A DNA stretch of 13,598 bases from an uncultured Pseudorhodoferax sp. GTDB lineage: Bacteria > Pseudomonadota > Gammaproteobacteria > Burkholderiales > Burkholderiaceae. Under the pieces are notes generated by a model that did no database searches, was not told where the DNA came from, and saw only the letters and a list, made by a program, of their open reading frames with translations. Below, piece by piece: positions 1 through 13,598 of this stretch. How positions within the stretch are numbered: position 1 is the first letter of the stretch; each line of letters starts with the position of its first letter. The position numbers and the translations under genes are program-made. Location: contig CAJYRH010000522.1 in the NCBI GenBank assembly GCA_913776795.1, forward strand, positions 1 to 13,598, read 5' to 3'.

Positions 1-1252
1 TGCTCAGCTGGCCGTTGGCACGTGCCTGGACGCGCCAGTCCTGCGGCAGCGCCAGCTGCACGAACCCACCGAGCCGCGCGATGCTGTAGTCGCGCCGGGC
101 GCCCGGACGCACGGCCTCGAAATCGGCTTGGCCGCTGTTGCGCCCGCCCAGGCCCAGGTTGTGGACCAGGGCGATGTTCGCGCCAGCCGGCCAGGCACCG
201 CCCTGCTGCACCTGGTACTCCAGGCTCAGCGGCTGGACCGTGACGCTTTCGCCGGCGCCGCCGCACACGCCGGCCGGCAGGCCGGCAATCGCACAGTCGT
301 TCAGGTAGGCGCGCTGGTCCAGGCCCAGCACCACGCGCTGGTCGCGCTCGCCCTGGCGCGGCAGCAGCTTGGTCAGGCGCGTGCCCAGCACACGCCCGCG
401 GCCGTTGAACTGCAAAGCGCCCGCGGCGGTGCCGGTGGTGCCGCCATCCACGCTCGAGTACGCGCCGTACAGGTCCCAGGCCAGGCCCTGGCCATAGAAC
501 GGAATGCGGTAGCTGCCGCTGAACACCTTGACCTGGTCCACATGGTCGGGCGAAGTCTGGGCCTGCAGCATCAGCTGGTGGTCCCGGTCCCACAGCCCGA
601 AATTCTGGTAGGCCACGCCGACGCGGTACCAGCCTGTCTGGTGGTTGCCGGTGTTGTCCAGGCTGAGCGACCAGGCGCCCACCGCACGCTCGGTCACGTT
701 GATGCGTGCATCCACCTCGCCTTGCTGCTGGCCGGGCTCCAGCACCACGGCCAGCTGCTTGGCAGGGTTCTCGTTGGCCAGCTGGATCTGCGCGTCGAGC
801 CGCTGCACCTGTGGCGTGCGGCCCTCCACCAGCAGCGGCAGGCTGCGCCGGATGTTGGCCTCGCTGAACGCCTTGTTGCCCAGCACGACCACGCGTGCCA
901 CGCGCCCTTCCAGCACGCGCACCGTGACCACACCGCCGGCGCCGCGCTGCTCGGGCAGGTAGGCGACCACGGCGCCGTAGCCAGCCTGGCGGTATTGGTC
1001 CTGAACAGCCGCGGCGGCCTGCTGCAGCTCCGCCACGCTGCGCTCGCCCTTGAACTGCGCCAGCGCCGACTGCAACACCGCATCCGGCAGCAGGGTGTTG
1101 CCTTCGATCCGGAAGGCCGTCACGTCCATCCGTGTCGGCTGCGGCGCCGTCACTACGGCTGGCTGGGCTTGCGCAGAAGGCAGCGCGCCGGCGGCCGCCG
1201 CCATGCCGATCCATGCGCAAGCGCAGGCTTTTCCAATAATCGAAGTGCTCAT
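1..1252 (-). CDS. FhaC/ShlB-type two-partner secretion outer-membrane transporter (TpsB), N-terminal part, runs off left edge
   Basis: TpsB proteins are outer-membrane beta-barrels that export one large TpsA partner (haemolysin or filamentous adhesin) from the periplasm. Read on the minus strand, 417 codons are visible out of roughly 550-600 usual for the family. Residues 1-29 look like a signal peptide: hydrophobic AWIGMAAAAGAL, then SAQAQ with a likely cut after AQA. POTRA 1 spans about 44-118 (FRIEGNTLLPDAVL, then VVTVRVLEGRV). POTRA 2 spans about 119-188 (VVVLGNKAFSEANIRRSL, ending DARINVTE). Alternating barrel strands begin near 192 (WSLSLDNTGNHQTGWYRVG). The window cuts the gene just before where the family's conserved loop-6 motif would be expected, so that motif cannot be checked. 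The start at 1252 is chosen because it begins a good signal peptide; an in-frame ATG at 1294 would add 14 residues and spoil it. Neither has a clear ribosome site. The gene diverges from the T6SS operon and its TpsA partner is not visible. The family call is firm; the exported substrate is unknown. Confidence 0.9.
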   Translation of the reverse strand, partial: MSTSIIGKACACAWIGMAAAAGALPSAQAQPAVVTAPQPTRMDVTAFRIEGNTLLPDAVLQSALAQFKGERSVAELQQAAAAVQDQYRQAGYGAVVAYLPEQRGAGGVVTVRVLEGRVARVVVLGNKAFSEANIRRSLPLLVEGRTPQVQRLDAQIQLANENPAKQLAVVLEPGQQQGEVDARINVTERAVGAWSLSLDNTGNHQTGWYRVGVAYQNFGLWDRDHQLMLQAQTSPDHVDQVKVFSGSYRIPFYGQGLAWDLYGAYSSVDGGTTGTAAGALQFNGRGRVLGTRLTKLLPRQGERDQRVVLGLDQRAYLNDCAIAGLPAGVCGGAGESVTVQPLSLEYQVQQGGAWPAGANIALVHNLGLGGRNSGQADFEAVRPGARRDYSIARLGGFVQLALPQDWRVQARANGQLS

Positions 1253-1519
1253 TGCGCGCCCGAAAACAAGATAATGTGCGCCAGCATTTTCCATTCCGTT
1301 GTATACAAAACAATAGGCGGACTTCATTTGTTTTTTTGCAGCTGAAGCCGCCTGCATTCCACTTTCAAAAAATTTAAGGAACGCTGTGTGCAGAGTGTTA
1401 CATTGAAAGGCTAGACTGGCTAGGCCCGCTCTTGAAGATAAGCCACTTTGCCTTCAAGCCATGGCAGGCATGGGCTGACTGATTCACTCCACCAAGAATC
1501 TCTTCGACGGTTTTGCCAC
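1253..1519. promoter_or_regulatory. Divergent intergenic region between the transporter gene and tssA
   Basis: This 267-nt gap is markedly more AT-rich than the rest of the window, with runs TTTTTTT at 1330-1336 and CAAAAAATTTAAGG around 1366-1379, as expected for a promoter region serving both directions. No -35/-10 pair with good matches and spacing was found on either strand, so no promoter is assigned. An imperfect hairpin lies in the tssA leader: AGCCATG (1457-1463) pairs with CATGGGCT (1469-1476), with one bulged base and a 5-nt loop, 43 nt upstream of the chosen tssA start. No RNA gene or further ORF of interest was seen. Confidence 0.5.
1299..1308. promoter_or_regulatory. Perfect 10-bp palindrome TTGTATACAA, candidate operator
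   Basis: TTGTATACAA equals its own reverse complement. It sits 47-56 nt upstream of the chosen transporter start, where a regulator could block or activate that gene. Operators of the TNGTNNNACNA type are known for FCD-subfamily GntR regulators, and this sequence fits that pattern. No regulator gene lies in the window, and a single 10-mer in an AT-rich region can arise by chance, so this is only a candidate. Confidence 0.3.
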
Positions 1520-2545
1520 ATGGACATGCAGGTGATCGACGTCTGGCTTGAGCCCCTGGAGGGTGATGCTTGCGGTCCGGACATGGAATACGACCCGAGT
1601 TTCATGGAATTGGAGCAGGCGGTCGCGGGTAAACCGGAGACGCAGTTCGGTCCGGCCGAAGCGCCCGATTGGCCGCGCAGCCGGGACCTGGCACAGGAGC
1701 TGTTCGGACAAACGCGCGACCTTCGCGTGGCCATGCACTGGACGCGCGCCATGGTCCATCTGGAGGGTCTGGAGGGCTTGCCGCCGGGCCTGGCGCTGCT
1801 GACGGGATGGCTGGGCCGCTACTGGGACGAATTGCACCCCAGGCCCGACCCGGACGACGGCGATGCGTTCGCGCGCCTGAGCGTGCTGGCCAGCCTGGAC
1901 GCGCTCGGCGGACTGCTGGGCGACGTGCGCCAGGCCCCGCTCGTCGTCGACCGGCGCCTGTCCGCGCTGCGGGTGCGCACCGTCGAGATCGCCCGCGAAA
2001 AGCTGGCCGCACGGGCCGACGAGCCGGTCCTGTCCCGTGGCCAGATCGAAGGCACATTGCGCGACCTGCCCGACCTGGCGGCGCGGCTGGAAGCGGCCGT
2101 CGGCGAGGCCTTGCGCCAGCTCAAGGCGCTGCACACGCTCATCGACGAGCGCTTCGGCGCCGGCCAGGGGCCGGAGCTCAAGAACCTGCGCGACATGCTG
2201 CAGGGCATCCAGACGGTCCTGCCCCAGACCGACGGCGGCGCCGAGCCGACGGAAGATGAGGCGCCCCCCGATCGGCCGACCGCTGCCCCCATAGCATCCG
2301 GCCGCGGCGGAGTATCCGCGGTGGAAAGCCGCGAGGATGCCGTCCGTGCCATTCAATTGGTGTGCGCTTATCTCGACCGCCACGAGCCCACCAATCCGGC
2401 GCAATTACTCCTGCGCCGCGCGGAACGTTTGATCGACAAGGATTTTCTGCAGCTCGTGCGCGACCTGGCGCCCGACGCATTGAATGAGGTCGCCAAAATC
2501 CTCGGCGTGGATCCAGAAACTGTCAGGGATTCGGGTTCCTACTGA
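1520..2545 (+). CDS. tssA: T6SS protein TssA (ImpA family)
   Basis: TssA proteins contact the baseplate and the distal end of the growing tail and help organise tube and sheath polymerisation in the cytoplasm. The product is 341 residues. The N-terminal ImpA_N domain spans about 8-120, with the typical opening LEPLEGDACGPDMEYDPSF, then DWPRSRDLAQELFGQTRDLR and RYWDELHP. A low-complexity linker rich in Asp, Glu and Pro lies near 249-276. The C-terminal block contains SREDAVRAIQLVCAYLDRHE and LLLRRAERLIDKDFLQLVRD, characteristic of the short TssA class. The start at 1520 gives the family's usual N-terminus; the frame is open upstream to a TTG at 1448, but those 24 residues are not TssA-like. 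An ATG at 1526 is an almost equal choice. The ribosome site is weak for all of them. It is the first gene of the + strand operon, 80 nt before tssB. The assignment is secure; the exact start is less so. Confidence 0.92.
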   Translation: MDMQVIDVWLEPLEGDACGPDMEYDPSFMELEQAVAGKPETQFGPAEAPDWPRSRDLAQELFGQTRDLRVAMHWTRAMVHLEGLEGLPPGLALLTGWLGRYWDELHPRPDPDDGDAFARLSVLASLDALGGLLGDVRQAPLVVDRRLSALRVRTVEIAREKLAARADEPVLSRGQIEGTLRDLPDLAARLEAAVGEALRQLKALHTLIDERFGAGQGPELKNLRDMLQGIQTVLPQTDGGAEPTEDEAPPDRPTAAPIASGRGGVSAVESREDAVRAIQLVCAYLDRHEPTNPAQLLLRRAERLIDKDFLQLVRDLAPDALNEVAKILGVDPETVRDSGSY

Positions 2546-2625
2546 TTAATGTGCCGGTATGGGCACTTGACACTGCATTAATTCATCGGCCGAGCTTGGC
2601 TTGGTTAACCTAGCGGAGAGTCAGC
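2546..2625 (+). promoter_or_regulatory. tssA-tssB spacer with a small hairpin and the tssB ribosome site
   Basis: Just after the tssA stop, GTGCC (2551-2555) pairs perfectly with GGCAC (2562-2566) across a 6-nt loop, flanked by two ATTAAT copies (2545-2550 and 2577-2582). A further perfect palindrome GGTTAACC lies at 2603-2610. A TTGACA box at 2567-2572 has no -10 partner at 15-19 nt. The strong ribosome site GGAGAG (2615-2620) stands 5 nt before the tssB ATG. The hairpin may stabilise or punctuate the mRNA; with only 5 pairs and no following T-run it is not a convincing terminator. Confidence 0.35.
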
Positions 2626-3123
2626 ATGGGCAGTAGCCAGAAATTCATTGCACGCAATCGTGCGCCACGTGTTCAGATTGAATACGATGTGGAACTCTAC
2701 GGCGCGGAGAAAAAGATCCAGCTGCCGTTCGTCATGGGCGTGATGGCCGACCTGGCGGGCAAACCCGAGGATCCGCTGCCCCCGGTGGCCGACCGCAAGT
2801 TCCTGGAGTTCGATGTCGACAACTTCGACACCCGCATGAAGGCCATGAAGCCGCGGGTGGCGTTCACGGTGCCCAACACGCTGACCGGCGAGGGCAACCT
2901 GTCCATCGACCTGACGTTCGAGAACATGGACGACTTCTCGCCGGCGTCCATCGCCGCGAAGTCCGAGGGCCTCAAGCAGTTGCTCGAAGCGCGCCAGCAG
3001 CTGTCCAACCTGGTCACCTACATGGACGGCAAGGGCGGCGCCGAGGAGCTGATCGCCAAGGTGCTCGCCGATCCCGCGCTGCTCGCCTCCCTGTCCGCCT
3101 CGGCCAAGCCGAGCGAGGCCTGA
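2626..3123 (+). CDS. tssB: T6SS contractile sheath small subunit TssB (VipA)
   Basis: TssB pairs with TssC to build the helical cytoplasmic sheath that contracts to drive the Hcp tube out of the cell. The 165-residue product matches the family length. The family signature begins at about residue 15 (RVQIEYDVELYGAEKKIQLP, then FVMGVMADLAG). It continues with EFDVDNFDTRMKAMKPRV, and the C-terminal half is helical and charged (LKQLLEARQQLSNLVTYMDG), the region that packs against TssC. The ATG follows a strong GGAGAG with 5-nt spacing. The gene lies 32 nt before tssC, as usual for this pair. In TagJ-containing systems TssB is also the reported docking site for TagJ, whose gene is further down this operon. 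No oddity was seen. Confidence 0.97.
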   Translation: MGSSQKFIARNRAPRVQIEYDVELYGAEKKIQLPFVMGVMADLAGKPEDPLPPVADRKFLEFDVDNFDTRMKAMKPRVAFTVPNTLTGEGNLSIDLTFENMDDFSPASIAAKSEGLKQLLEARQQLSNLVTYMDGKGGAEELIAKVLADPALLASLSASAKPSEA

Positions 3124-3155
3124 ACCCCTACCCACAAGGCATCCGGAGCACCTTC

Positions 3156-4646
3156 ATGGCCGAACTGCAACAAACTGGCGCCGCGTTCGAGGGCGTCACC
3201 GTCGAGGGCAACGACTTCGCGTCGCTGCTGAGCAAGGAATTCAAGCCCAAGTCCGACGAGGCGCGCTCGGCGGTCGAGGCCGCGGTGCAGACGCTGGCAG
3301 CCCAGGCGCTGACCAACGCCAAGCTCATCAGCAGCAACACCGTGGCCAGCATCGAATCGATGATCGCCGCGATCGACCGCAAACTGTCCGAGCAGCTCAA
3401 CCTGATCCTGCACCACGCCGACTTCCAGAAGCTCGAATCGGCCTGGCGCGGGCTGCACTACATGGTCAACAACACGGAGACCGACGAGCAGCTGAAGATC
3501 CGCGTGATGTCCATCTCCAAGCAGGACCTGGGCAAGACACTCAAACGCTACAAGGGCACGGCCTGGGACCAGTCGCCGCTCTTCAAGAAGCTGTATGAAG
3601 AGGAGTACGGCCAGTTCGGCGGCGAACCGTTCGGCGCCATCGTCGGCGACTACCACTTCGACCACTCGCCACCCGATGTCGAACTGCTCGGCGAGATGTC
3701 CAAGATCGCCGCGGCCGCGCACGCGCCCTTCATCACCGGCGCCGCGCCGACCGTGATGCAGATGGATTCGTGGGGCGAGCTGGCCAACCCGCGCGACCTC
3801 ACCAAGATCTTCAGCACGCCCGAGTACGCCGCCTGGCGCTCGCTGCGCGAGAGCGACGACGCACGCTACCTGGCGATGTGCATGCCGCGCTTCCTGGGAC
3901 GGTTGCCCTACGGCCCGAAGACGTCGCCGATCGACGCCTTCAATTTCGAGGAAGACACGGTCGGCGCCGACCACGACAAGTACAGCTGGTGCAACGCGGC
4001 CTACGCCATGGCCACGAACATCAACCGCTCGTTCAAGCTGTACGGCTGGTGCTCGCGCATCCGCGGCATCGAGTCCGGCGGCGCGGTCGAGAACCTGCCC
4101 ACCCACAGCTTCCCGACAGACGACGGCGGGGTGGACATGAAGTGCCCGACCGAGATCGCCATTTCCGACCGCCGCGAAGCGGAGCTCAGCAAGGCGGGCT
4201 TCCTGGCGATGATCCACCGCAAGAACTCCGACTTCGCGGCCTTCATCGGCGGCCAGTCGCTGCAAAAGCCTGCGGAGTACGACGACCCGGACGCCACCGC
4301 CAACGCCTCGCTGGCCGCGCGCCTGCCCTACCTGTTCGCCTGCAACCGCTTCGCCCACTACCTCAAGTGCATGGTGCGCGACATGGTGGGCTCGTTCAAG
4401 TCGCGCGACGCGATGGAGCGCTGGCTGAACGAATGGATCATGGCCTACGTCGATGGCGATCCGACCAACTCGAGCGAGACCACCAAGTCCCAGCGCCCGC
4501 TGTCGGCCGCCGAGGTCGTGGTCGAGGAGGTCGAAGGCGCACCTGGCTACTACCAGTCCAAGTTCTTCCTCAAGCCGCACTACCAGCTCGAAGGCCTGAC
4601 CGTTTCGCTGCGACTGGTATCCAAGCTGCCGAGCGAGAAGGGTTGA
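3156..4646 (+). CDS. tssC: T6SS contractile sheath large subunit TssC (VipB)
   Basis: TssC forms the outer layer and core of the contractile sheath together with TssB; the contracted form is the substrate of the ClpV ATPase. The product is 496 residues, the normal family length. Recognisable blocks are LESAWRGLHYMVNNTETDEQ at about 93-112, FGAIVGDYHFDHSPPDVE, a central ITGAAPTVMQMDSW, PRFLGRLPYGPKTSPIDAFN, and a C-terminal part with ARLPYLFACNRFAHYLKCM. The final residues (YYQSKFFLKPHYQLEGL, then SLRLVSKLP) are the typical end of the family. The start ATG has GGAG about 8 nt upstream. It follows tssB closely and is followed by a 101-nt gap before hcp. Nothing appears truncated or frameshifted. 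Confidence 0.97.
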   Translation: MAELQQTGAAFEGVTVEGNDFASLLSKEFKPKSDEARSAVEAAVQTLAAQALTNAKLISSNTVASIESMIAAIDRKLSEQLNLILHHADFQKLESAWRGLHYMVNNTETDEQLKIRVMSISKQDLGKTLKRYKGTAWDQSPLFKKLYEEEYGQFGGEPFGAIVGDYHFDHSPPDVELLGEMSKIAAAAHAPFITGAAPTVMQMDSWGELANPRDLTKIFSTPEYAAWRSLRESDDARYLAMCMPRFLGRLPYGPKTSPIDAFNFEEDTVGADHDKYSWCNAAYAMATNINRSFKLYGWCSRIRGIESGGAVENLPTHSFPTDDGGVDMKCPTEIAISDRREAELSKAGFLAMIHRKNSDFAAFIGGQSLQKPAEYDDPDATANASLAARLPYLFACNRFAHYLKCMVRDMVGSFKSRDAMERWLNEWIMAYVDGDPTNSSETTKSQRPLSAAEVVVEEVEGAPGYYQSKFFLKPHYQLEGLTVSLRLVSKLPSEKG

Positions 4647-4747
4647 GGACTGCCCGGAACAGCCCTCGTGTTGTGTGTTGACCGTTAGACCAATCGCTGT
4701 ATCTGCCACGGCCCGTGCGGGCGTAGGCACCAACCAAAGGAAATGAC
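4647..4747 (+). promoter_or_regulatory. tssC-hcp spacer: weak promoter candidate and strong hcp ribosome site
   Basis: At 101 nt this is one of the longer gaps in the operon and precedes the gene expected to be most highly expressed. A TTGACC box (4678-4683) is followed 16 nt later by TATCTG (4700-4705), a poor -10 match, so an internal promoter is only possible. GCCC/GGGC around 4712-4723 can form a short stem. The purine-rich AAAGGAAATGAC directly before the hcp ATG is the best ribosome site in this part of the operon and agrees with high Hcp synthesis. Confidence 0.25.
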
Positions 4748-5287
4748 ATGCCAGGAAACGCTTTCATCAAGTTCAAGGGCGTCGACAAGGGAGAGTCGAT
4801 GGCCGAGACCCATCCGGGCAAATCCGGCTGGAACGAAATCACCGACTGGAGCTGGGACATCGAGGCCGAGACGAGCTTCCTGAAGGGCAGCGGCGCGGCG
4901 GTGGGCAAGCCCACGCCGGGCACCTTCTCGATCACCCATCCCTATGACACGGCCTCGCCCGCGATCATGAACCGCATCGTGCTGGGCACGCACTTCGCCG
5001 AGGTGCAGGTCGTCATGCTCAAGCAGACCGGCGCAGCAGATGGCAAGGGCGAGATCTACTTCGGCGTGCAGATGCGCTCGGTCTTCATCACCAAGGTGTC
5101 GAGCAAGGGCGGCGAGGACGGCTCGGTCACCCAGGACGTGGAGTTCGTGTTCAAGGACATCGCGCTGGGCTACCGCCCGCAGAAGCAGGACGGCGGCCTG
5201 GACGTCCAGATGAACTTCGGCTGGGACATCGCCAAGATGACCACCGACGGCATCACCGCGCCGGACATCAAGAACTTGAAGGGCTGA
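4748..5287 (+). CDS. hcp: T6SS tube protein Hcp (canonical copy)
   Basis: Hcp hexamers stack into the inner tube that is fired out of the cell and can carry small effectors in its lumen. The 179-residue product carries the family pattern. Its N-terminal strand is AFIKFKGVDKGES, followed by WNEITDWSWDIEAE (about 28-41). Next come GTFSITHPYDTASPAIMNRI and a central pair of strands (FGVQMRSVFITKVSSKGGED). The C-terminal signature is DVEFVFKDIALGYRPQ and then FGWDIAK near 157-163. It is slightly longer than many Hcp proteins (about 160-170) because of a roughly 16-residue tail after the FGWDI motif (TTDGITAPDIKNLKG). No separate toxin domain is fused. It occupies the usual hcp position after tssC and has the strongest ribosome site nearby. 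It is the most likely of the three copies to be the main tube protein. Confidence 0.95.
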   Translation: MPGNAFIKFKGVDKGESMAETHPGKSGWNEITDWSWDIEAETSFLKGSGAAVGKPTPGTFSITHPYDTASPAIMNRIVLGTHFAEVQVVMLKQTGAADGKGEIYFGVQMRSVFITKVSSKGGEDGSVTQDVEFVFKDIALGYRPQKQDGGLDVQMNFGWDIAKMTTDGITAPDIKNLKG

Positions 5288-5307
5288 GCCGCTGCACGCG
5301 CAGACCG

Positions 5308-5330
5308 GGGTCGGCGCGCGCCGCTGACCC
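5308..5330 (+). promoter_or_regulatory. GC-rich hairpin directly after hcp, possible transcript stabiliser or attenuator
   Basis: GGGTC (5308-5312) pairs with GACCC (5326-5330), and between them GGCGCGCGCC (5313-5322) is a perfect palindrome that extends the stem, with a 3-nt bulge (GCT) on the right arm. The hairpin starts 20 nt after the hcp stop codon. It lacks a T-run, so it is not a classic intrinsic terminator. A 3' hairpin here would fit differential expression of the first hcp over the genes behind it, but that is inference. Confidence 0.35.
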
Positions 5331-5354
5331 TCCCTTCGGCCGCCTGGTCCTGCC

Positions 5355-5924
5355 ATGTCCACCCAAATCTTCCTCTACCTCGACGTGCACGGCCGGGCCA
5401 TCGCCGGAGAAGGCTCGACCGCCGGCTACGAGGGCGAGATCGAGATCGAGAGCTTCTCCTTCGACCTGGGCGAGGAATCGAGTGCGTCCAAGGACAAGAC
5501 CGAGGAGGCCTACCGCCAGGCCGTGTACCAGGCCAGCAAGGACGGAAAGCCGCCGCCCAAGAAGCCCGCACAGTCCGCGGGCAACACGCTCAGCATCACC
5601 AAGTTCTACGACAAGTCGTCGACCAACCTGGCCCGCTACCTGGCCAATGGCGCCCGCTTCGACGAAGCGCGCCTGACCGTCGACCACCACCTCATCTCCG
5701 GGGGCGCCAAGATCGCCAACCCGGCGCTGACCGTGACCCTGTTCAACGGCCAGATCAAGGACCTGAACCTGAGCCTGTCGGACAGCGACAAGTCGGCCAA
5801 GCTCATGGAGACCATCAAGCTGTCCTACCGCAAGATCGAGGTCGTCTACTACAAGTCCAGCCGCAAGGACCGCACCGCGCGCAGCGCGAACTTCGTCTTC
5901 AGCCACGACCTGGACAAGAAGTGA
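5355..5924 (+). CDS. Hcp-like protein, second paralogue with Lys-rich insertion
   Basis: This 189-residue protein has the Hcp fold pattern: an N-terminal strand IFLYLDVHGRAIAGE, then GYEGEIEIESFSFDLGE (25-41). A core follows with LSITKFYDKSSTNLARYLAN (79-98) and ARLTVDHHL (105-113). The later strands are ALTVTLFNGQIKDLNLSL and ETIKLSYRKIEVVYYKSS. Its ending (NFVFSHDLDKK) replaces the FGWDI-type end of the first copy. Residues about 43-77 are an insertion rich in Lys, Pro and Ala (KDKTEEAYRQAVYQASKDGK, then PPPKKPAQ), in the region where Hcp proteins have a variable extended loop. It lies 67 nt after hcp and 61 nt before the third paralogue; the ribosome site is weak. It is clearly different in sequence from the neighbouring Hcp, so this is not a recent duplication. 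It may form part of the tube, cap it, or carry cargo; the sequence alone cannot decide. Confidence 0.85.
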   Translation: MSTQIFLYLDVHGRAIAGEGSTAGYEGEIEIESFSFDLGEESSASKDKTEEAYRQAVYQASKDGKPPPKKPAQSAGNTLSITKFYDKSSTNLARYLANGARFDEARLTVDHHLISGGAKIANPALTVTLFNGQIKDLNLSLSDSDKSAKLMETIKLSYRKIEVVYYKSSRKDRTARSANFVFSHDLDKK

Positions 5925-5985
5925 CGGCTGACAGAGCGCACCGACCGACCCGACCGAACGCACCGCCACGCCCCGAGGCATCGCC

Positions 5986-6585
5986 ATGTCATCGCTGCTG
6001 TTTCTCCAACTGATCGACAAGGGCGGCAGCCTCGTGAAGGGCGAGGTCGAAGCCGAAGGCCATGCGCACTGGATCGAGGTCGAGGGCTGCAGCTGGGACA
6101 TGTCGCAGCGCGACGAGCTGCAGGGCACCGTCGCAGGCAAGGCCGCCAACTACGCCAGGCCCAAGACCTTCAGCTTCAGCAAGGCGCCCGACAGTTCGAC
6201 CACGCGCATGATGCAGGCCCAGGTCGAAGACCTGCTGTTCCAGCGCGCCGACTTCCACCTCTTCGAGGAACTCGAGGGTTCGGCCGAGGACACCGGCGGC
6301 ATCTTCGACCTCACCATCACGCTGACGGACGTGCGCGTCAAGAGCTACAAGCTGACCGCCAGCAGCGACGACAAGGCCGTCACGCTGAAGGAAGAGTGGG
6401 AACTCGACTACGGCGACATCACTTTCAAGCACAAGAACGCCGGCGCGAACGTGACCATCGAGAAGCCGGCCGAGCCGCCCACGCCGCCCGACAAGGGCAA
6501 GCCGGACGCGTCCGGCGCCACCGGCGGTGCATCCGGCGGCCAGGGCGGTGGCAGCGACTTCCTGACGCCTCTGGGCAGCATCTGA
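5986..6585 (+). CDS. Divergent Hcp-like protein, third paralogue with Pro/Gly-rich C-terminal tail
   Basis: The first about 158 residues follow the Hcp strand order: LLFLQLIDKGGSLVKGEVEA, then HWIEVEGCSWDMSQRDE (28-44), TFSFSKAPDSSTTRMMQAQV (61-80), and FDLTITLTDVRVKSYKLTAS. They end with KEEWELDYGDITFKHKN. It is more distant from the other two than they are from standard Hcp. From residue 160 it carries a 40-residue tail of low complexity (EKPAEPPTPPDKGKP, then ASGATGGASGGQGGGSDF) ending DFLTPLGSI, which lacks any recognisable enzyme domain. GAGG lies 7 nt before the ATG. It is followed after 37 nt by the zinc-ribbon gene. A flexible linker with a short hydrophobic end is the sort of structure that can dock a partner, but this is inference. 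The Hcp-family call is reasonably sure; its role is not known. Confidence 0.8.
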   Translation: MSSLLFLQLIDKGGSLVKGEVEAEGHAHWIEVEGCSWDMSQRDELQGTVAGKAANYARPKTFSFSKAPDSSTTRMMQAQVEDLLFQRADFHLFEELEGSAEDTGGIFDLTITLTDVRVKSYKLTASSDDKAVTLKEEWELDYGDITFKHKNAGANVTIEKPAEPPTPPDKGKPDASGATGGASGGQGGGSDFLTPLGSI

Positions 6586-6622
6586 CACTGCCGCGCCCAC
6601 GCATGCACGAGACCCAACGGCC

Positions 6623-7207
6623 ATGGCACTGACCAACTACACCGATGTCAGCCCCGAGTTCACGGACACCGATGCAGGTTTCGAGTTCGAATTCCGCTGC
6701 ACGGACTGCGCGTACCGCTGGCGCAGTCCGCTGCAGCCCTACACGCGCGGCCGGATCGCCGGCTGGCTCTTCAACCTGAACTACCTGATCAGCGGCGCGC
6801 GTGCCTCGGAAGCCGCCAGCCGCCGCGTGGCCGAGGCCGGCGCCGGGCAGGCGCGCGACGACGCGCTCGCCAGGGCACGGCAGCTCGCCGCCGCGCACTT
6901 CAGCGAGTGCGAGGAATGCAGGAAGGCGTTCTGTGGCGACTGCTTCGATGCCGACGCACGCCAATGCCATGCCTGCGCCCACACCGCCAGGCGCGGCCAG
7001 CAGGCGGGCGGCATGCCACAGGCCCATGCCCCGGCGGCCCGCAGCACAAGCCCGAACTGCCCGAACTGCAGCACCGCAAGCCACGGCGGGCGTTTCTGCG
7101 CGGAATGCGGCTTCGACATGGCCAGCACCCACAAGAGCTGCCCCGGCTGCGGCGCGATGGCCGAACGCAGCGCGCGCTTCTGCGGCGACTGCGGCCACGG
7201 ATTCTGA
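6623..7207 (+). CDS. Poly-zinc-ribbon protein of unknown function, T6SS-linked
   Basis: I do not recognise this as any core or standard accessory T6SS protein. The 194-residue product has eight CxxC pairs, enough ligands for four zinc ions: C26/C29, C96/C99, C104/C107, C115/C118, C146/C149, C159/C162, C173/C176 and C187/C190. The last four pairs form a tandem double zinc-ribbon (CPNC...CAECG, CPGCG...CGDCG). The N-terminal part begins with FEFEFRCTDCAYRWRSPLQP, then a segment with GRIAGWLFNLNYLISGA that may be a short amphipathic or membrane-touching helix. A charged helix (about 61-95) follows, and then CEEC/CGDC/CHAC. No signal peptide is visible, so it is probably cytoplasmic. It lies between the third Hcp-like gene and tagJ with short gaps (37 and 44 nt) on the same strand, so it is almost certainly co-transcribed. 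Possible roles include adaptor, chaperone or scaffold; none is shown by the sequence. Confidence 0.85.
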   Translation: MALTNYTDVSPEFTDTDAGFEFEFRCTDCAYRWRSPLQPYTRGRIAGWLFNLNYLISGARASEAASRRVAEAGAGQARDDALARARQLAAAHFSECEECRKAFCGDCFDADARQCHACAHTARRGQQAGGMPQAHAPAARSTSPNCPNCSTASHGGRFCAECGFDMASTHKSCPGCGAMAERSARFCGDCGHGF

Positions 7208-7251
7208 AGCCGGCGCATCGCCGAAGACGCCAACCCGATCGGACACCTGCC

Positions 7252-8097
7252 ATGAACCCACAAGCTCTCGCCGCGGCCGAAGCCGCCGTGCGCGCCAGCG
7301 ACCCCAAGGCCGCACTGGCCGCGCTGACCACGGCCGTCAAGGCCGCGCCGGCCAACCCGAAGCTGCGCATCTTCATGGCGCAGCTGCTGTGCGTGCTCGG
7401 CCAGTGGGAGCGGGCGCACACCCAGCTCAACGTCGTCGCGGACATGGACGGCACCACCGGGCCGATGCGCGAGATGGTCGGCCATGCGTTGCGCTGCGAA
7501 CTGCTGCGCGCGGCGGTGTTCGAAGGCCGCCGCACGCCCATGGTGTTCGGCCAGCCGGACGAATGGCTCGCGCTGCTCATCGAATCGACGCTGCAGCGCC
7601 AGGACGCCGCGCAGAGCGCGCACCTGGCGCAAGCGGCCTTCGATGCCGCGCCGGCCAGCGCCGGCCTGCTCAACGGCGAGCCGTTCGAATGGATCGCCGA
7701 TGCCGATTCGAGGCTGGGCCCGGTGCTCGAGGCCATGGTCAACGGCAAGTACTACTGGATCCCCTTCAGCCGCCTGTCGCGCATCTCCATCGACGACCCG
7801 GGCGACCTGCGCGACCGGGTCTGGCTGCCGGCCCACATCGGCTTTGCGAACGGCGGCGAAGCCATCGCGATGATCCCGACCCGCTACCCCGGTTCCGAGC
7901 ACAGCGCGGACGGCCAGATCCTCATGGCCGCGAAGACCGAGTGGGCGGCCATCGGCGACGAGCGCTATGCCGGCCTGGGCCAGCGCGTGCTGGTGACCGA
8001 CACCGGCGAGCACGACATGCTGTCGGTGCGCCTGATCGAGTTCCACGACGCGGCGCCTGCCGAAGGTGCCAACGCGGGTGCGCCGGCCGATGGCTGA
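7252..8097 (+). CDS. tagJ: T6SS accessory protein TagJ (ImpE/HsiE1 family)
   Basis: TagJ is an accessory factor found with one class of T6SS; in Pseudomonas aeruginosa HSI-I the homologue HsiE1 binds the TssB sheath protein and is linked to ClpV recruitment. The product is 281 residues. Residues about 1-65 are helical, TPR-like repeats (AAEAAVRASDPKAALAALTT, then PANPKLRIFMAQLLCVLGQW). The C-terminal domain has the ImpE pattern: GEPFEWIADADSRLGPVLEA, INGKYYWIP-like NGKYYWIPFSRL, RDRVWLPAH and IPTRYPGSE. The frame is open upstream to 6907, but MNPQ at 7252 gives the family N-terminus and fits the end of the preceding gene. The last 8 nt overlap the start of tssE, which suggests coupled translation. 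In HSI-I this gene directly follows hcp; here three genes separate them from the canonical copy. Confidence 0.92.
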   Translation: MNPQALAAAEAAVRASDPKAALAALTTAVKAAPANPKLRIFMAQLLCVLGQWERAHTQLNVVADMDGTTGPMREMVGHALRCELLRAAVFEGRRTPMVFGQPDEWLALLIESTLQRQDAAQSAHLAQAAFDAAPASAGLLNGEPFEWIADADSRLGPVLEAMVNGKYYWIPFSRLSRISIDDPGDLRDRVWLPAHIGFANGGEAIAMIPTRYPGSEHSADGQILMAAKTEWAAIGDERYAGLGQRVLVTDTGEHDMLSVRLIEFHDAAPAEGANAGAPADG

Positions 8098-8617
8098 ACT
8101 GAACTCGCGCGACCGCCTGCAACCCTCCCTGCTGGACCGCCTGACCGACAGCGCCCCGTCCGACAGCCAGGAGACGCTGGAGGCGCGCGTCCTGACGCGC
8201 CAGCAGTTGCGCCACGCCGTGCTCCGCGACCTTTCCTGGCTGTTCAACGCCACGCGCGCCGAGCCCGAGCCGGCTTCCTCGCGCGAGGACGAGGTGCGGC
8301 TGTGGGAGCGCTACCCCCATGCGCGCCACTCGGTGCTGAACTTCGGCATGCCGGCCTTCGCCGGCACCACGCTGTCGTCCATGGACACGCAGCAGATCGA
8401 GCGGGTGGTCGCTGCGGTCATCAAGGACTTCGAGCCCCGCATCGCCGCCGACACCCTGGCCGTGTCGGTGCGCATGGACCCGGACAACCACCACAACACG
8501 CTGCAGCTGACGATCCGCGGGCAGATGTGGAACCAGCCGGTGCCGCTGGAGCTGTTGCTGGCGGCCGACCTGGACATCGAGACCGGCAACACGCGCGTGC
8601 GCGACCTGCGTCCTTGA
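8090..8617 (+). CDS. tssE: T6SS baseplate protein TssE (gp25-like)
   Basis: TssE is the homologue of phage T4 gp25, a baseplate wedge component that helps start sheath polymerisation. The 175-residue product has the family order: LQPSLLDRLTD (10-20), then VLRDLSWLFNATRAE (44-58). These are followed by RHSVLNFGMPAFAGTTLSSM (79-98) and IERVVAAVIKDFEPRI (103-118). The C-terminal strand region is LAVSVRMDPDNHHNTLQLTI (123-142). Start choice: the frame is open a further 24 nt upstream, but MAEL at 8090 begins just inside the tagJ stop and gives the usual N-terminus. It is followed by the unusual 192-nt spacer before tssF. No truncation was seen. Confidence 0.93.
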   Translation: MAELNSRDRLQPSLLDRLTDSAPSDSQETLEARVLTRQQLRHAVLRDLSWLFNATRAEPEPASSREDEVRLWERYPHARHSVLNFGMPAFAGTTLSSMDTQQIERVVAAVIKDFEPRIAADTLAVSVRMDPDNHHNTLQLTIRGQMWNQPVPLELLLAADLDIETGNTRVRDLRP

Positions 8618-8809
8618 CCATGAAACCACCCCGCTCGGCTGGCCCGCTGCGTGCAGCCATCCCATACCCCACAAAAGGCGCACCCGGCGGCCGGGCTGAG
8701 CCCCTTGCGCGGGTGCGCGGGCATGGCCTGCTTTGCGGCCGTTCGACCAGCGGCATGCGGGCCGTCGTGGTGCTCCGCGGGTGGTGCGCCAGGGCCATGG
8801 ACCACTGAC
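8618..8809. repeat. GC-rich tssE-tssF spacer with inverted repeat, possible dispersed repeat element
   Basis: This is the longest non-core stretch inside the operon, where other gaps are about 100 nt or less. It contains a perfect 9-bp inverted repeat, GCGCACCCG (8678-8686) and CGGGTGCGC (8710-8718), enclosing a smaller GGGC/GCCC stem (8693-8696 and 8700-8703). A second short stem CTGC/GCAG lies at 8647-8656. The text has the look of short palindromic intergenic elements found in many copies in betaproteobacterial genomes, but only one copy is visible here, so the repeat nature is unproven. Confidence 0.35.
8620..8808 (+). CDS. Small ORF exactly filling the tssE-tssF spacer, doubtful
   Basis: An ATG 2 nt after the tssE stop opens a 62-residue frame whose TGA ends 1 nt before the tssF ATG. 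The peptide starts MKPPRSAGPLRAAIPYPTKG and is rich in Arg, Gly, Ala and Pro, with no domain or membrane segment. The fit could mean translational coupling from tssE through to tssF. However, every frame in this GC-rich spacer is fairly open (the tssF frame and a minus frame also run through it), and the composition resembles a translated intergenic repeat. I consider it more likely not a protein gene. Confidence 0.15.
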   Translation: MKPPRSAGPLRAAIPYPTKGAPGGRAEPLARVRGHGLLCGRSTSGMRAVVVLRGWCARAMDH

Positions 8810-10672
8810 ATGGACCCCCGCCTCCTTCGCTACTACAACCAGGAACTGCGCTACCTGCGCGAGCTGGGCGGCGAATTCGCGCGCGAATTTCCCAAGATCG
8901 CGGCCCGGCTGGGCATGGACGGCCTGGAGGTGGCCGACCCGTACGTGGAGCGCCTGCTGGAGGGTAGCGCCTTCCTGGCCGCGCGCGTGCAGCTCAAGCA
9001 GGACGCCGAGTTCCCGCGCTTCTCGCAGCGCCTGCTGGAGATCGTCTACCCGAACTTCCTCGCGCCCACGCCCGCGATGATGGTGGCGCAGCTGCACCCG
9101 GTGCCCGACCCCAACCTGCTGAAGGCGCCGACGGTACCGCGCGACAGCCAGGTGCTGGGTCCGGCCAGCGGCAAGAGCCGCACCCGCTGCGAGTTCCGCA
9201 CCGCCCAGGCGGTGCGCCTGACCCCGCTCAGCGTGGCCAAGGCCGAATACTTCCTCAACGTCGCCGATCTCGGCCTGGCGGGCCTGCAACTGCCGGTGCG
9301 CCCGCGCGCGGGCCTGCGGTTGCGCCTGCAGGTGCCCGCCGGCATGGCGATGGCGCAGCTCGACCTGGACGCGTTGTGCATCTACCTGGGCGGCCAGACC
9401 GATGTGGCGATGCGCCTGCATGCGCTGCTGCTGGGCAGCACCGTGGCCGTGCTGGCGGGCCCTCCCGGCCAGCCGCAATCGCGTCGCGTGCTGCCGGCCG
9501 ATGCGGTGCAGCCCGTGGGCTACGCCGACGACGAAGCCCTGCTGCCGCCCACGCTGCGCGGCTTCGCCGGCATGCGCGTGTTGCAGGAGTACTTCGCGTT
9601 CCCCGAGCGCTTCCTGTTCGTGCGCATCGCCGGCCTGCGCGCCGCGCTGCAGGCCTGCCCGGCCAACGAGCTGGAGATCGTTCTGCTGCTGTCGGCGCCG
9701 GGCCAGGGGCTGGACGGCGTGGTCGATGCCGACAACTTCCTGCTGCACTGCACGCCGGCGATCAACCTGTTCCCCAAGCGCGCCGACCGCATCCAGATCG
9801 ACGAGGGGCACCACGAATTCCAGGTCGTGCCCGACCGCAGCACGCCGCTGGACTACGAGGTCTACGAGGTGCTGGGCCTGAACGGCTACGACGACCATGG
9901 CGACGAGCGCCACTTCCTGCCGCTGTACGCGCCCAGCCACGCCACCCTGCCCGGCCAGCCGGCCTACTACACCAGCTGGCGCGAGCCGCGGCTGGTGTCC
10001 GAGCAGGCACGCCGCGATGGGCCGCGCTCGGGCTACATCGGCTCGGAGGTCTTCGTGTCGCTGGTCGACACCAGCGAGGCGCCCTACCCCGGCGCGCTGC
10101 GCCAGCTGTCGGTGCACACGCGCTGCACCAACCGCGACCTGCCGATCTTCCTGGGCACCGGCGGGCTCAGCGAGTTCACGCTGGACGCCGGCATCCCGCT
10201 CGGATCGGTACGCGCCGTGGCCGGCCCGTCGCGCCCGCACACCTCGCTGCGCGAGGGCGGCGTGGCCTGGCGCTTCATCAACCTGCTGTCGCAGAACTAC
10301 CTGTCCATCATCGAGAGCGGCGACGGCGAGGCGGTGGCCGCGCTGCGCAGCCTGCTCAGCCGCTTTCCCCAGGGCGACGAGGCCACGGTGCGCCGCCAGA
10401 TCGAGGCGCTGCAGGGCGTCGCGACGCGCCCCGTGGTGCGCCGCCATCCCGCCCCGGGGCCGATCGCCTTCGCGCGCGGCATCGAGATCGAACTGACCGT
10501 CGACGAGCTGGGCTACCAGGGCGGCAGCGCCCACCTGTTCGGTGCCGCGATGCACCACTACCTGTCGCGCCACGTGTCGATGAACAGCTTCGTGGAGACC
10601 TCGCTCCGGTCGCTGACGCGCGGCGAGATCATGCGTTGGAGACCATCGCACGGACAGAGGGCCGTGCTGTGA
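8810..10672 (+). CDS. tssF: T6SS baseplate protein TssF
   Basis: TssF is a large baseplate wedge protein that works in a complex with TssE, TssG and TssK to anchor the sheath. The product is 620 residues, within the family range. The N-terminus is diagnostic: LLRYYNQELRYLRELGGEFA, then FPKIAARLGMDG and DPYVERLLEGSAFLAARVQL. The LLEIVYPNFLAPTPAMMVAQ block follows. The C-terminus has the typical MNSFVETSLRSLTRGEIMRW ending. The frame is open upstream to 8651, but the upstream residues are not TssF-like and fall in the repeat-like spacer, so the ATG at 8810 is chosen; its ribosome site is weak. The stop TGA overlaps the GTG start of tssG by 4 nt. No frameshift or missing block was noticed. Confidence 0.95.
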   Translation: MDPRLLRYYNQELRYLRELGGEFAREFPKIAARLGMDGLEVADPYVERLLEGSAFLAARVQLKQDAEFPRFSQRLLEIVYPNFLAPTPAMMVAQLHPVPDPNLLKAPTVPRDSQVLGPASGKSRTRCEFRTAQAVRLTPLSVAKAEYFLNVADLGLAGLQLPVRPRAGLRLRLQVPAGMAMAQLDLDALCIYLGGQTDVAMRLHALLLGSTVAVLAGPPGQPQSRRVLPADAVQPVGYADDEALLPPTLRGFAGMRVLQEYFAFPERFLFVRIAGLRAALQACPANELEIVLLLSAPGQGLDGVVDADNFLLHCTPAINLFPKRADRIQIDEGHHEFQVVPDRSTPLDYEVYEVLGLNGYDDHGDERHFLPLYAPSHATLPGQPAYYTSWREPRLVSEQARRDGPRSGYIGSEVFVSLVDTSEAPYPGALRQLSVHTRCTNRDLPIFLGTGGLSEFTLDAGIPLGSVRAVAGPSRPHTSLREGGVAWRFINLLSQNYLSIIESGDGEAVAALRSLLSRFPQGDEATVRRQIEALQGVATRPVVRRHPAPGPIAFARGIEIELTVDELGYQGGSAHLFGAAMHHYLSRHVSMNSFVETSLRSLTRGEIMRWRPSHGQRAVL

Positions 10673-11721
10673 CCGCAGCCGCCGATGGCTTCGACGACTG
10701 GCTGGCCGCGCTGACTGCGCAGCCTTGGCGGCACGACTTCTACCAGGCGCTGCGCCACATCGAGGCCGCGCACCCGCACCTGCCGCGGCTGGGCGAGGCC
10801 CTGCGCCCCGCGGACGAGCCGCTGCGTCTGGCCCAGCCGCCGGAGTTGAACTTCTCGCCGGCGTCGCTCCACGCGGTGGAACGGAGCCACGCGGGCGTGG
10901 CACGCTTGCAGCAGCGCATCTTCGGCATGCTCGGGCCCAACGGTCCGCTGCCGATCCACCTGACCGAGTACGTGCGCGAGCGCGCCGTGCATGCCGGCGA
11001 CGCGACGCTGCTGCGCTTTCTGGACCTGCTGACGCACCGCTTCGCGCTGCTGTTCTACCGCGCCTGGGCGCAGGCCCAGCCGGTGGTGGCGCTCGACCGT
11101 CCGGGGCCCAGCGCCTTCACCGCCCGCCTGGGCGCGCTGATCGGCATCGGCGAGCCCGCACTGCTGCAGCGCGATGCGGCGGGCGACGCGGCCAAGCTGC
11201 ATTTCGCCGGCCGCCTGTCGCGACAGGTGCGCGATGCCGACGGGCTGCTGCAATGGATCCGGCTGGAGTTCGACGTGCCCGTGCGCATCGTGCAGTGGCG
11301 CGGGCACTGGATGGCGCTGGGGCGCGAGGAGCGCACCCGGCTGTTTCCGCCGCTGCAGCGCAACGCCGGCCAGCAGCTGGGCCGAGGCGCCGTGCTGGGC
11401 CGCGCGGTCTGGGACGTGCAACACAAGTTCCGCATCGTCATCGGACCACTGCGCGCAGCGCGCTACCACGCGCTGCTGCCCGGCGGCAAGGACCTGGCCC
11501 GACTGCAGGCGCTGGTGCGCCAGTGGGTCGGGCTGGAATTCCAGTGGGACCTGCAACTGATCCTGGCCCGGGCCGACGTGCGCCCGATGCGCCTGGCCCG
11601 CAGCGGCGAGCTGGGCCGCAGCTGCTGGCTCGGCAACTACCGGCCCGCGGCCGATGCGGACGACCTCGTCATCGATGTCGAACGCACGCACCGACCGACG
11701 AGCCGACCGACGACCTCCTGA
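10669..11721 (+). CDS. tssG: T6SS baseplate protein TssG
   Basis: TssG forms the core of the baseplate wedge, bridging TssF to the rest of the complex in the cytoplasm. The 350-residue product has the family opening (FDDWLAALTAQPWRHDFYQA, then LRHIEAAHPHLPRLGEAL). The PPELNFSPASLHAVE block follows, then GMLGPNGPLPIHLTEYVRER. The later part has FRIVIGPLRAARYHALLPGG and LVRQWVGLEFQWDLQLILAR. The frame is open far upstream inside tssF, but the GTG at 10669, sharing GTGA with the tssF stop, gives the proper N-terminus and implies coupled translation. The final dozen residues (RTHRPTSRPTTS) are encoded by ACCG-type short repeats and look like a non-conserved extension. Confidence 0.93.
   Translation: MTAAADGFDDWLAALTAQPWRHDFYQALRHIEAAHPHLPRLGEALRPADEPLRLAQPPELNFSPASLHAVERSHAGVARLQQRIFGMLGPNGPLPIHLTEYVRERAVHAGDATLLRFLDLLTHRFALLFYRAWAQAQPVVALDRPGPSAFTARLGALIGIGEPALLQRDAAGDAAKLHFAGRLSRQVRDADGLLQWIRLEFDVPVRIVQWRGHWMALGREERTRLFPPLQRNAGQQLGRGAVLGRAVWDVQHKFRIVIGPLRAARYHALLPGGKDLARLQALVRQWVGLEFQWDLQLILARADVRPMRLARSGELGRSCWLGNYRPAADADDLVIDVERTHRPTSRPTTS
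11687..11717 (+). repeat. Short ACCG-type repeat at the tssG 3' end
   Basis: The tssG tail is written by CGACCGACGAGC followed by CGACCGACGACC, two near-identical 12-nt units. The 13-mer CGCACCGACCGAC at 11687-11699 recurs exactly at 5937-5949, in the spacer before the third Hcp-like gene. These are low-complexity tracts of a GC-rich genome and could be slippage-prone; no function is implied. Confidence 0.5.
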
Positions 11722-11756
11722 CCAACGACCACCCGACCCGCAAGGACGCCTTCACC

Positions 11757-13598
11757 ATGAGCGAAATCAGCCGCGTTGCCCTGTTCGGCAAACTGAACCC
11801 GCTGGCCTACAAGGCCATCGAGAGCGCCACCGTCTTTTGCAAGATGCGCGGCAATCCTTACGTGGAGCTGGTGCACTGGTTCGTGCAGCTGGTGCAGAAC
11901 AACGAGACCGACCTGGACGCCATCCTGCGCCACTACCAGGTCGATGCCTCGGCCATGGCGCGCGACATGACGGCCGCGCTCGACCGGCTGCCGCGCGGGT
12001 CCACCTCCATCAGCGATTTTTCCGAGCAGATCGAGAACTCGATCGAGCGCGCCTGGGTCTATGCCACCCTGCAGTTCGGCGAGGCGCACGTGCGCACCGG
12101 CACGCTGATCATCGGCATGATGAACAGCAACAACCTGCGCAACGCGCTGCTGGCCATCTCCAAGGAATTCGCCAAGATCCGCGTCGACGACCTGGCCGAC
12201 AACTTCGCCAAGATCTGCGGCGGCACGCAGGAAAGCAAGCTCGGCGCGCAGGACGGCACCGGCATGGGCTCGGGCGAGCCGGGCAGCGAAAGCGGCGCGA
12301 TGGCGCCGGCCGCCATGGGCAAGGGCGAGGCGCTGAAGAAGTTCTGCGTCGACATGACCGAGCGCGCCCGCGAAGGCAAGATGGACCCGGTCACGGGCCG
12401 CGACGAGGAGATCCGCCAGATCGTCGACATCCTCATGCGCCGGCGCCAGAACAACCCCATCCTCACGGGCGAGGCCGGTGTCGGCAAGACGGCGGTGGTC
12501 GAGGGCTTCGCCCAGCGCCTGGCACGCGGCGACGTGCCGCCGCAGCTGCAGGAGGTCGCGCTGCTGAGCCTGGACCTGGGGCTGCTGCAGGCCGGTGCCA
12601 GCATGAAGGGCGAGTTCGAGCAACGCCTGCGCCAGGTGATCGACGAGGTGCAGGCCTCGCCCAAGCCCATCATCCTGTTCATCGACGAGGTGCACACGCT
12701 GGTGGGCGCCGGTGGCGCGGCCGGCACCGGCGACGCGGCCAACCTGCTCAAGCCCGCGCTGGCGCGCGGCAACCTGCGCACCATCGGCGCCACCACCTGG
12801 GCCGAGTACAAGAAGTACATCGAGAAGGACCCCGCGCTGACCCGCCGCTTCCAGGTCGTGCAGGTGCCCGAGCCCGACGAGGCCAAGGCCGTGCTGATGC
12901 TGCGCGGCGTGGCCACCGTGCTGGAGAAGCACCACCGCGCGCAGTTGCTGGACGAGGCCATCGAGGCCGCGGTGCGGCTGAGCCACCGCTACATCCCGGC
13001 GCGCCAGCTGCCCGACAAGGCTGTGAGCCTGCTGGACACCGCCTGCGCCCGCGTGGCCGTCAGCCAGCACGCGACGCCGGCCGAGGTGGAGGACTGCACG
13101 CGCCGCATCGAGGCACTGGAGATCGAGGAAGGCATCATCGCCCGCGAACAGGCGGTCGGCGTGGCCGTCGGCACGCGCGGCACCGAGGTGGCCGAGAAGC
13201 TCACCACCGAGCGCGCGCGCCTGGTCGGCCTGCAGGCCAGGTGGAAGGACGAGAAGGCGGTCGTCGACAAGGTGCTCGAACTGCGCGCCCGGCTGCGCCT
13301 GGAAGGCGACGAGGCCAAGGACGTCGACCGCGAAGCGGTGCTGGCCGAGCTGCGCGGCGCGCAGGACCAGCTCGCCGCCCTGCAGGGCGAGTCTCCGCTC
13401 ATCATGCCTTCGGTGGACGCGCAGGCCGTGGCCAGCGTGGTGTCCGACTGGACCGGCATTCCCGTCGGCCGCATGGTCAAGAACGAGCTGGAGAACATCC
13501 TGCGCCTGGGCGAGACGCTGGGCCAGCGCGTGATCGGCCAGCAGCACGGCCTGGACATGATCGCCAAGCGCATCCAGACCTCGCGCGCACGGCTGGAC
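11757..13598 (+). CDS. clpV: T6SS sheath-disassembly ATPase TssH (ClpV), N-terminal part, runs off right edge
   Basis: ClpV is a hexameric AAA+ ATPase of the ClpB family that extracts and recycles TssC/TssB from the contracted sheath. The visible part is 614 residues; the full protein is usually about 870-900. The N-terminal Clp_N domain covers about 1-155 (LNPLAYKAIESATVFCKMRG, then NPYVELVHWFVQL). A Gly/Ser-rich linker at 160-188 follows. The first AAA+ domain has Walker A GEAGVGKT (238-245), Walker B ILFIDE (306-311) and LTRRF (361-365) with the expected arginine finger. A charged coiled-coil middle domain lies at about 440-545, and the conserved VVSDWTGIPVGRM begins at 561. The second ATPase domain has just begun at the window end, so its Walker motifs cannot be checked. 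AAGGA lies about 10 nt before the ATG. Its presence with tagJ agrees with the HSI-I-like class. Confidence 0.96.
   Translation, partial: MSEISRVALFGKLNPLAYKAIESATVFCKMRGNPYVELVHWFVQLVQNNETDLDAILRHYQVDASAMARDMTAALDRLPRGSTSISDFSEQIENSIERAWVYATLQFGEAHVRTGTLIIGMMNSNNLRNALLAISKEFAKIRVDDLADNFAKICGGTQESKLGAQDGTGMGSGEPGSESGAMAPAAMGKGEALKKFCVDMTERAREGKMDPVTGRDEEIRQIVDILMRRRQNNPILTGEAGVGKTAVVEGFAQRLARGDVPPQLQEVALLSLDLGLLQAGASMKGEFEQRLRQVIDEVQASPKPIILFIDEVHTLVGAGGAAGTGDAANLLKPALARGNLRTIGATTWAEYKKYIEKDPALTRRFQVVQVPEPDEAKAVLMLRGVATVLEKHHRAQLLDEAIEAAVRLSHRYIPARQLPDKAVSLLDTACARVAVSQHATPAEVEDCTRRIEALEIEEGIIAREQAVGVAVGTRGTEVAEKLTTERARLVGLQARWKDEKAVVDKVLELRARLRLEGDEAKDVDREAVLAELRGAQDQLAALQGESPLIMPSVDAQAVASVVSDWTGIPVGRMVKNELENILRLGETLGQRVIGQQHGLDMIAKRIQTSRARLD

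Follow-up and report, generated by a model that had tools for sequence, protein, structure and literature searches.

A conserved row of three diverged Hcp genes in a Burkholderiales type VI secretion locus, two of which may encode rings at one end of the tube

The tube of the type VI secretion system (T6SS) is usually pictured as a single Hcp stacked straight onto VgrG. Here, we describe a T6SS operon in which three Hcp-fold genes stand in a row (positions 4748-6585, between tssC and a zinc-ribbon gene), as had been claimed in a first-pass annotation of the same DNA. The operon lies in a stretch of 13,598 nucleotides from an uncultured Pseudorhodoferax sp. (assembly GCA_913776795.1, contig CAJYRH010000522.1, positions 1 to 13,598, forward strand), which as a whole is called the window below. 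We name the three genes H1, H2 and H3, and their counterparts in other genomes classes A, B and C, with A2 for a second class A gene. Tentatively, we favor a reading in which class A forms the bulk of the tube, and one of its ends, most likely the one that faces VgrG, carries rings of B and C in low copy number.

Several described systems bear on this locus; for all papers cited here and below, our statements reflect the parts of the texts that were available. In extracellular contractile injection systems (eCIS), Alg1 forms the tube, and Alg5 and Alg7, which share its fold, provide two layers that join tube to spike, with an added C-terminal domain in Alg7 that reaches the wedges (PMC8894135). 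Bacteroides species have multi-Hcp T6SSs with Hcp hetero-hexamers (PMC13323088, PMC4714493). In avian pathogenic Escherichia coli (APEC), there are three hcp clusters of known Hcp types, and the same source notes that a T6SS cluster can contain more than one hcp (PMC5874247); another report concerns an integrated T6SS that has three genes of the hcp family (PMC4882540). TagJ, which is also encoded in the window, has been linked to one ClpV/TssC class (PMC4239648). Our literature search, which covered few subscription papers, turned up no paper that describes an A-B-C row conserved in Proteobacteria. Within the scope of this search, the suggestion that the arrangement is an undescribed variation of the apparatus may hold for the row itself, but not for its ingredients, since the Hcp genes of Eleftheria terrae (see below) are annotated as such, and multi-hcp clusters and the Bacteroides hetero-hexamers are known.

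H1 (4748..5287, 179 residues), H2 (5355..5924, 189 residues) and H3 (5986..6585, 199 residues), all on the + strand, score 72.8, 64.1 and 69.7 bits against PF05638, well above the curated cut-off of 23.5 bits; the cut-off of 58.9 bits for the TssD subfamily in NCBIfam (TIGR03344) is not reached (35.2, 33.6 and 38.4 bits). Single-chain predicted models of H2 and H3 have the Hcp tube fold. The possibility that either of the two might not be an Hcp, raised in the first-pass annotation, is rejected by these models together with the PF05638 matches. In H2, about 20 extra residues, modeled as a helix (43-62), sit at the site of the Hcp extended loop. The core of H3 runs to about residue 163 and is followed in the model by a disordered, Gly-rich tail (residues 165-199, 6478..6582, +), consisting of a linker and a terminal [FY]LxPLGS[FIL] motif (FLTPLGSI in H3) that is kept in all six rows of the H3 alignment. 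Because residue 161 of the H3 model aligns with residue 158 of Hcp1 from enteroaggregative E. coli (EAEC; PDB 4hkh), the tail should start at the ring-stacking face. The ring-ring interface of EAEC Hcp1 includes the C-terminal residue 158 and the loop residue N93, and tryptophans at these positions abolish tube formation (PMC3925092). Alignments and models agree with the earlier claim that inserts and C-termini are the main differences among the three Hcps. An evolved Hcp effector is rejected for the window, as the H3 tail of 36 residues is disordered and has no second domain.

The three-gene row is not confined to the window. Protein searches returned 18 proteins related to H2, one of them the window's own, and six related to H3, and Pseudorhodoferax sp. 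Leaf274 and Aquariibacter albus have the same row, with no other PF05638 match in either genome. Among 200 genomes of the family, as the search tool delimits it, at least 72 have an Hcp and at least nine have three or more in a row (rows counted by eye, among the matches listed); a draw from the whole class yielded an Hcp in 71 of 369 genomes, and three in a row were seen, again by eye, only in the centre genome G001. As PF05638 splits or misses class C copies with a long insert, such draws may overlook triple-Hcp loci; G032 and G193 were not conspicuous in the 200-genome PF05638 scan. A class A profile found strong matches (E 3.4e-56 or better) in 19 of 399 genomes of the family. The order tssC, A, (A2), B, C, zinc-ribbon gene is present in all 19 complete loci (the window and 18 genomes), seven of which have A2; a twentieth locus, L047, ends at a contig end after class B and is not counted as complete. 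All frames for A, B and C are open in every locus read. E. terrae, which was left out when the class models were built and provided the only record with a match in a plasmid search, has four genes after tssC, all annotated as Hcp in the public record. They score best with the models for A, A2, B and C, in this order (265, 284, 122 and 121 bits; next best class 250, 244, 49 and 60 bits, with A and A2 near each other). The search for the same gene set elsewhere, which had been proposed as a check, hence revealed a conserved order in 19 complete loci and E. terrae. Sister loci have two Hcp genes, D1 and D2, after tssC; of the two-Hcp genomes seen, we compared the subset L016-L020, L022, L023 and L025. 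Separately, L024 (G084:C8:67838-68728) contains a single open frame of 491 residues with two consecutive PF05638 matches, which looks like an Hcp-Hcp fusion.

Judging by the sequences, A, B and C are three old Hcp classes. In a 54-row tree, B, C and A each occupy one side of a branch (support 96/89, 97/94 and 87/85). A faster method applied to 84 rows again recovers B and C (SH-aLRT, the approximate likelihood ratio test, 93 and 90); B and C jointly reach 97, and A and A2 are intermixed; long branches meet in this tree, according to a warning of the tool, and L020 and L021 were left out. D2 is a separate extra group (99/93 in the 54-row tree), which groups with neither B nor C in both trees. 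Since B and C each form one group across loci, the split between A, B and C predates these loci. Recent duplication is rejected by both trees and by the sequence divergence, as the first-pass annotation had anticipated, and the ratios of nonsynonymous to synonymous substitution rates (dN/dS) are in line with this. Between the window and Leaf274, dN/dS is 0.043 for H1, 0.043 for tssB and 0.033 for tssC, and 0.246 and 0.249 for H2 and H3. Class A is thus as slow as the sheath, and the values for B and C are five to six times that of A. Over ten loci, mean pairwise identities are 62% for A, 35% for B and 33% for C. The faster evolution of B and C would be expected if they were redundant or decaying tube copies that arose by ordinary duplication and now evolve under relaxed constraint. 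However, dN/dS values near 0.25 in both, open frames everywhere and classes that form one group each across distant loci make this explanation highly improbable.

The C-termini separate the classes further. A W-[NDS]-x segment, the counterpart of the Hcp1 C-terminus in P. aeruginosa, is present within the last 45 residues of all 20 A, all seven A2 and all eight D1 copies (W-D-I in H1), and in none of the B (0/20), C (0/19) and D2 (0/8) copies; the E. terrae Hcps obey the same rule. Class A is likely the bulk tube protein. Lengths are 165-191 residues for class A, 168-190 for B, except for one copy of 233, and 199-326 for C. In six distant-branch loci (L042, L043, L045, L046, L048 and L049), class C has 254-326 residues, owing to a highly charged insert of roughly 90-170 residues, located at the extended loop and mostly N-terminal to the second half of the Hcp domain; PF05638 mostly matches only the part after the insert. 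Every complete locus has both B and C, both lack the C-terminal segment of A, and C is always longer, which together suggests that they are end rings, in a layout like that of the eCIS initiator. Alternatively, B and C might form separate homohexameric rings and act as cargo-specific carriers that are mixed into the A tube or swapped with it. The two classes differ most in the extended loop (L2,3) and at the C-terminus, and variant L2,3 loops of two APEC Hcps are needed for the delivery of antibacterial effectors (PMC5874247). Yet cargo-specific Hcps would be expected to come and go, whereas both extra classes are found in every complete locus and in fixed order, and neither has the C-terminal segment of the A copies. 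We therefore regard dedicated carriers as unlikely.

The end-ring reading suggests the following model. Class A (H1) would build the bulk tube, and classes B and C (H2 and H3) would form low-copy rings of the tube fold at one end, most likely the baseplate end. The class C tail might dock to the baseplate or to an assembly partner, the zinc-ribbon protein might help assembly, and a fused TssB/TssC-like protein encoded downstream might form the corresponding terminal piece of the sheath. Of the special roles proposed in the first-pass annotation, the tube-start adaptor is the best fit to the comparative evidence; the tip cap finds no support, since nothing puts B or C beyond VgrG.

The fused gene belongs to a conserved downstream region. 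In relatives of the window, this region encodes vgrG, a DUF4123 protein, two conserved proteins, an FHA protein, a DUF4280 protein, tssK, tssL with OmpA, and tssM. The two conserved proteins after DUF4123 have about 590 and 270 residues (L028:1299-3062 and 3062-3868) and no Pfam or NCBIfam match; E. terrae has both (L051:21708-24202), with 37% and 46% identity to those of L026. A fused TssB/TssC-like protein of about 600 residues is encoded in five of the first seven downstream stretches examined, after tssM (L028:15037-17007, L026:2511-4766(-), L029:3247-5217(-), L032:2810-4705(-) and L033:14372-16954), and in E. terrae after tssK (L051:25652-27430). Its match to TssB is weak, that to the N-terminal part of TssC is clear (1.7e-32), and the C-terminal domain of TssC is missing; its tail has two short LLxxL-type motifs, in 5/5 aligned proteins and E. 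terrae. All 19 A-B-C genomes have the paralogue at E 3.7e-187 or better, a stricter level than the E 1e-10 at which all 24 genomes searched match, because ordinary TssC matches too. In a 200-genome draw with up to six candidates scored per genome, it was found at E 1e-60 in 11/11 A-B-C genomes versus 2/189 others, that is, genomes without a strong class A profile match (Fisher 2e-16, counts uncorrected for kinship). In the two exceptions, identity is lower (51 and 47%). One of these two, G145, which is also the only one of five two-Hcp genomes with the paralogue, has the fused gene (L050:9442-11559) with no match to tss queries or Hcp profiles within about 8-9 kb in a stretch of 20 kb. No description of the paralogue was found in the literature search. 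On this comparison, an end piece of the sheath is a possible role for it.

A sheath-fold partner would fit as well if B and C closed the far (TssA) end of the tube rather than starting it, and the features that suggest an end ring, a tail at one face and the missing C-terminal segment, would equally suit a terminator. However, the T6SS sheath grows distally (PMC5511345), so that growth would have to push aside an end ring at that place, and in eCIS the last tube ring is capped by a separate protein with a single domain, Alg16A (PMC8894135). Far-end closure is therefore improbable.

In the window, the zinc-ribbon gene (6623..7207, +) encodes a double zinc-ribbon protein of 194 residues (PF12773, 33.6 bits). 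The gene directly follows class C in all 19 complete loci (L013 was left out of the zinc-ribbon alignment) and has no match in the eight two-Hcp stretches. In an order-wide draw with up to eight candidates scored per genome, it was found in at least three of 399 genomes, represented by G001, L040 and L041. The relatives in the latter two (L040:9822-10565(-) and L041:5837-6586(-)) lie outside detectable T6SSs, with no match to the Hcp profile or to eight tss queries in the 20 and 16 kb examined. These two cases and E. terrae refute the zinc-ribbon protein as a strict marker of the A-B-C set and place it in a wider family. More broadly, the A-B-C loci may represent a T6SS subtype with a phage- or eCIS-like tail, comprising an A tube, a two-ring B and C initiator with docking tail, a second sheath protein as the end piece of the sheath and, in most members, a zinc-ribbon assembly factor; we consider this possible, with more reservation than the placement of B and C.

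Co-divergence of the proteins provides a separate line of evidence. With the TssC/TssF distance removed, the values for B-C, A-B and A-C are 0.71, 0.64 and 0.59, and those for the other 18 of 21 pairs are at most 0.38 (permutation p for the three Hcp pairs printed as 0.000 with 2000 permutations; L047 and A2 copies left out). The pair TssE-zinc ribbon, at -0.43, indicates that the residuals contain some structure. The values fit contact among A, B and C. Across the first ten loci, the net charges of B and C appeared to offset each other (r -0.91, core values), and over 19 loci (L047 left out) the contrast was r -0.62 for the core (p 0.0025) and -0.45 for full-length proteins (p 0.032). The known partners TssB and TssC gave -0.57 and -0.60, and other pairs were negative too (A2-TssB -0.71/-0.74 in seven loci, B-zinc ribbon -0.43/-0.46, A-TssC -0.49 at full length), all among 36 pairs in two versions each and without correction for multiple testing. 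In the eight new loci other than L037, the B-C signal was not significant (r +0.34), nor was it when L037 was added (-0.46). As it did not replicate, compensatory B-C charge was dropped as evidence.

A number of points weigh against B and C as end rings. Co-divergence and constant co-occurrence would fit equally well if hetero-hexamers within the tube contained B and C together, or either of them with A, and if such mixed rings loaded particular effectors, a role attributed to Hcp hetero-hexamers in Bacteroides. This alternative, although itself doubtful, is a close rival of the end-ring reading. It lost support when the B-C charge signal was absent in the eight further loci, and it faces a problem of room: in the six loci with long class C, 94-166 residues exceed the 160-residue core, which amounts to 62-110 kDa for six copies, more than the roughly 41 kDa that the lumen of one ring would hold by our estimate (radius of 20 and height of 40 angstrom assumed). 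The excess argues against repeated homohexamers in those loci, and three copies per ring would ease the problem for mixed rings; for the window itself, the estimate allows six copies of the H3 tail (24 kDa). The shared fold of the paralogues may bring rate biases that raise the co-divergence values. Binding of cargo, too, would produce fast change and lineage-specific tails. Nor is the W-[NDS]-x segment universal in tube-forming Hcps, as the solved Hcp 8yun has F-D-I at this place; with [WF] allowed, 3/20 B copies match, and since D2 lacks the segment too, its absence alone does not mean an end ring. No second Pfam domain, LysM or other, passes its cut-off in class C (only PF05638 in H3 and in 14/14, 7/7 and two further copies scanned). 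Finally, the counts for the sheath paralogue contain kinship, and in E. terrae the last Hcp gene is directly followed by tssE, with no zinc-ribbon gene at that place.

The other T6SS genes of the window all lie on the + strand. The Hcp row is preceded by tssA (1448..2545; PF06812, 109 bits; TIGR03363, 201 bits), tssB for the small sheath subunit (2626..3123; PF05591, 189.4 bits) and tssC for the large one (3156..4646; PF05943, 449.7 bits; PF18945, 145.2 bits). Behind the zinc-ribbon gene follow tagJ, also called impE (7252..8097; PF07024, 142.7 bits), the baseplate genes tssE (8090..8617; PF04965, 72.9 bits; TIGR03357, 80.4 bits), tssF (8810..10672; PF05947, 688 bits) and tssG (10666..11721, start approximate; PF06996, 325 bits), and clpV (11757..13598), which is truncated by the window end and assigned by its AAA and AAA_lid_9 domains and its place in homologous loci. 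Upstream of tssA, on the opposite strand (2-1357, -), a ShlB/FhaC-type two-partner secretion transporter (POTRA and ShlB) is truncated by the window start; a relative is also found near the Aquariibacter locus (L002:2293-4014, -).

As eCIS start their tubes with dedicated tube-fold proteins (PMC8894135), the A-B-C set with its second sheath protein offers a natural system for a gene-by-gene test of how T6SS and eCIS differ in this respect. If B and C mix into rings, Hcp hetero-hexamers would extend from Bacteroides to Proteobacteria, and the two would be a defined pair for the study of cargo loading. If instead the subtype exists as outlined, a T6SS tube need not consist of a single Hcp over its whole length.

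We know of no A-B-C row or sheath paralogue in those E. coli and Salmonella strains that carry three hcp genes. What these strains have in common with the present loci is the number, three Hcp types per strain (PMC5874247, PMC4882540, PMC13055400). The Bacteroidales multi-Hcp T6SS (PDB 9vne) likewise has several diverged Hcp genes in one T6SS (PMC4714493), but belongs to another phylum, and the present loci have a fixed A-B-C order with one extra class that is always longer. The two-Hcp D1-D2 loci resemble them in placing a second Hcp, without W-[NDS]-x (0/8), behind the first; in contrast, D2 falls outside the B and C groups, there is no zinc-ribbon match, and the sheath paralogue occurs in only 1/5 genomes. 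With the single-Hcp H1-type T6SS (TagJ/HsiE class, such as P. aeruginosa H1), the loci share tagJ beside the tail genes and, in the sister stretch L028, an FHA gene and a frame that by eye reads like PP2C; they differ in having three or four Hcp genes, the zinc-ribbon gene and the second sheath-fold gene. The eCIS Alg5/Alg7 arrangement has LysM in Alg7, whereas class C has none. Because of the missing LysM, we do not class them as members of the Alg5/Alg7 group and say only that they would work like it, with one bulk tube protein and two further proteins of the same fold, one of which has a C-terminal extension.

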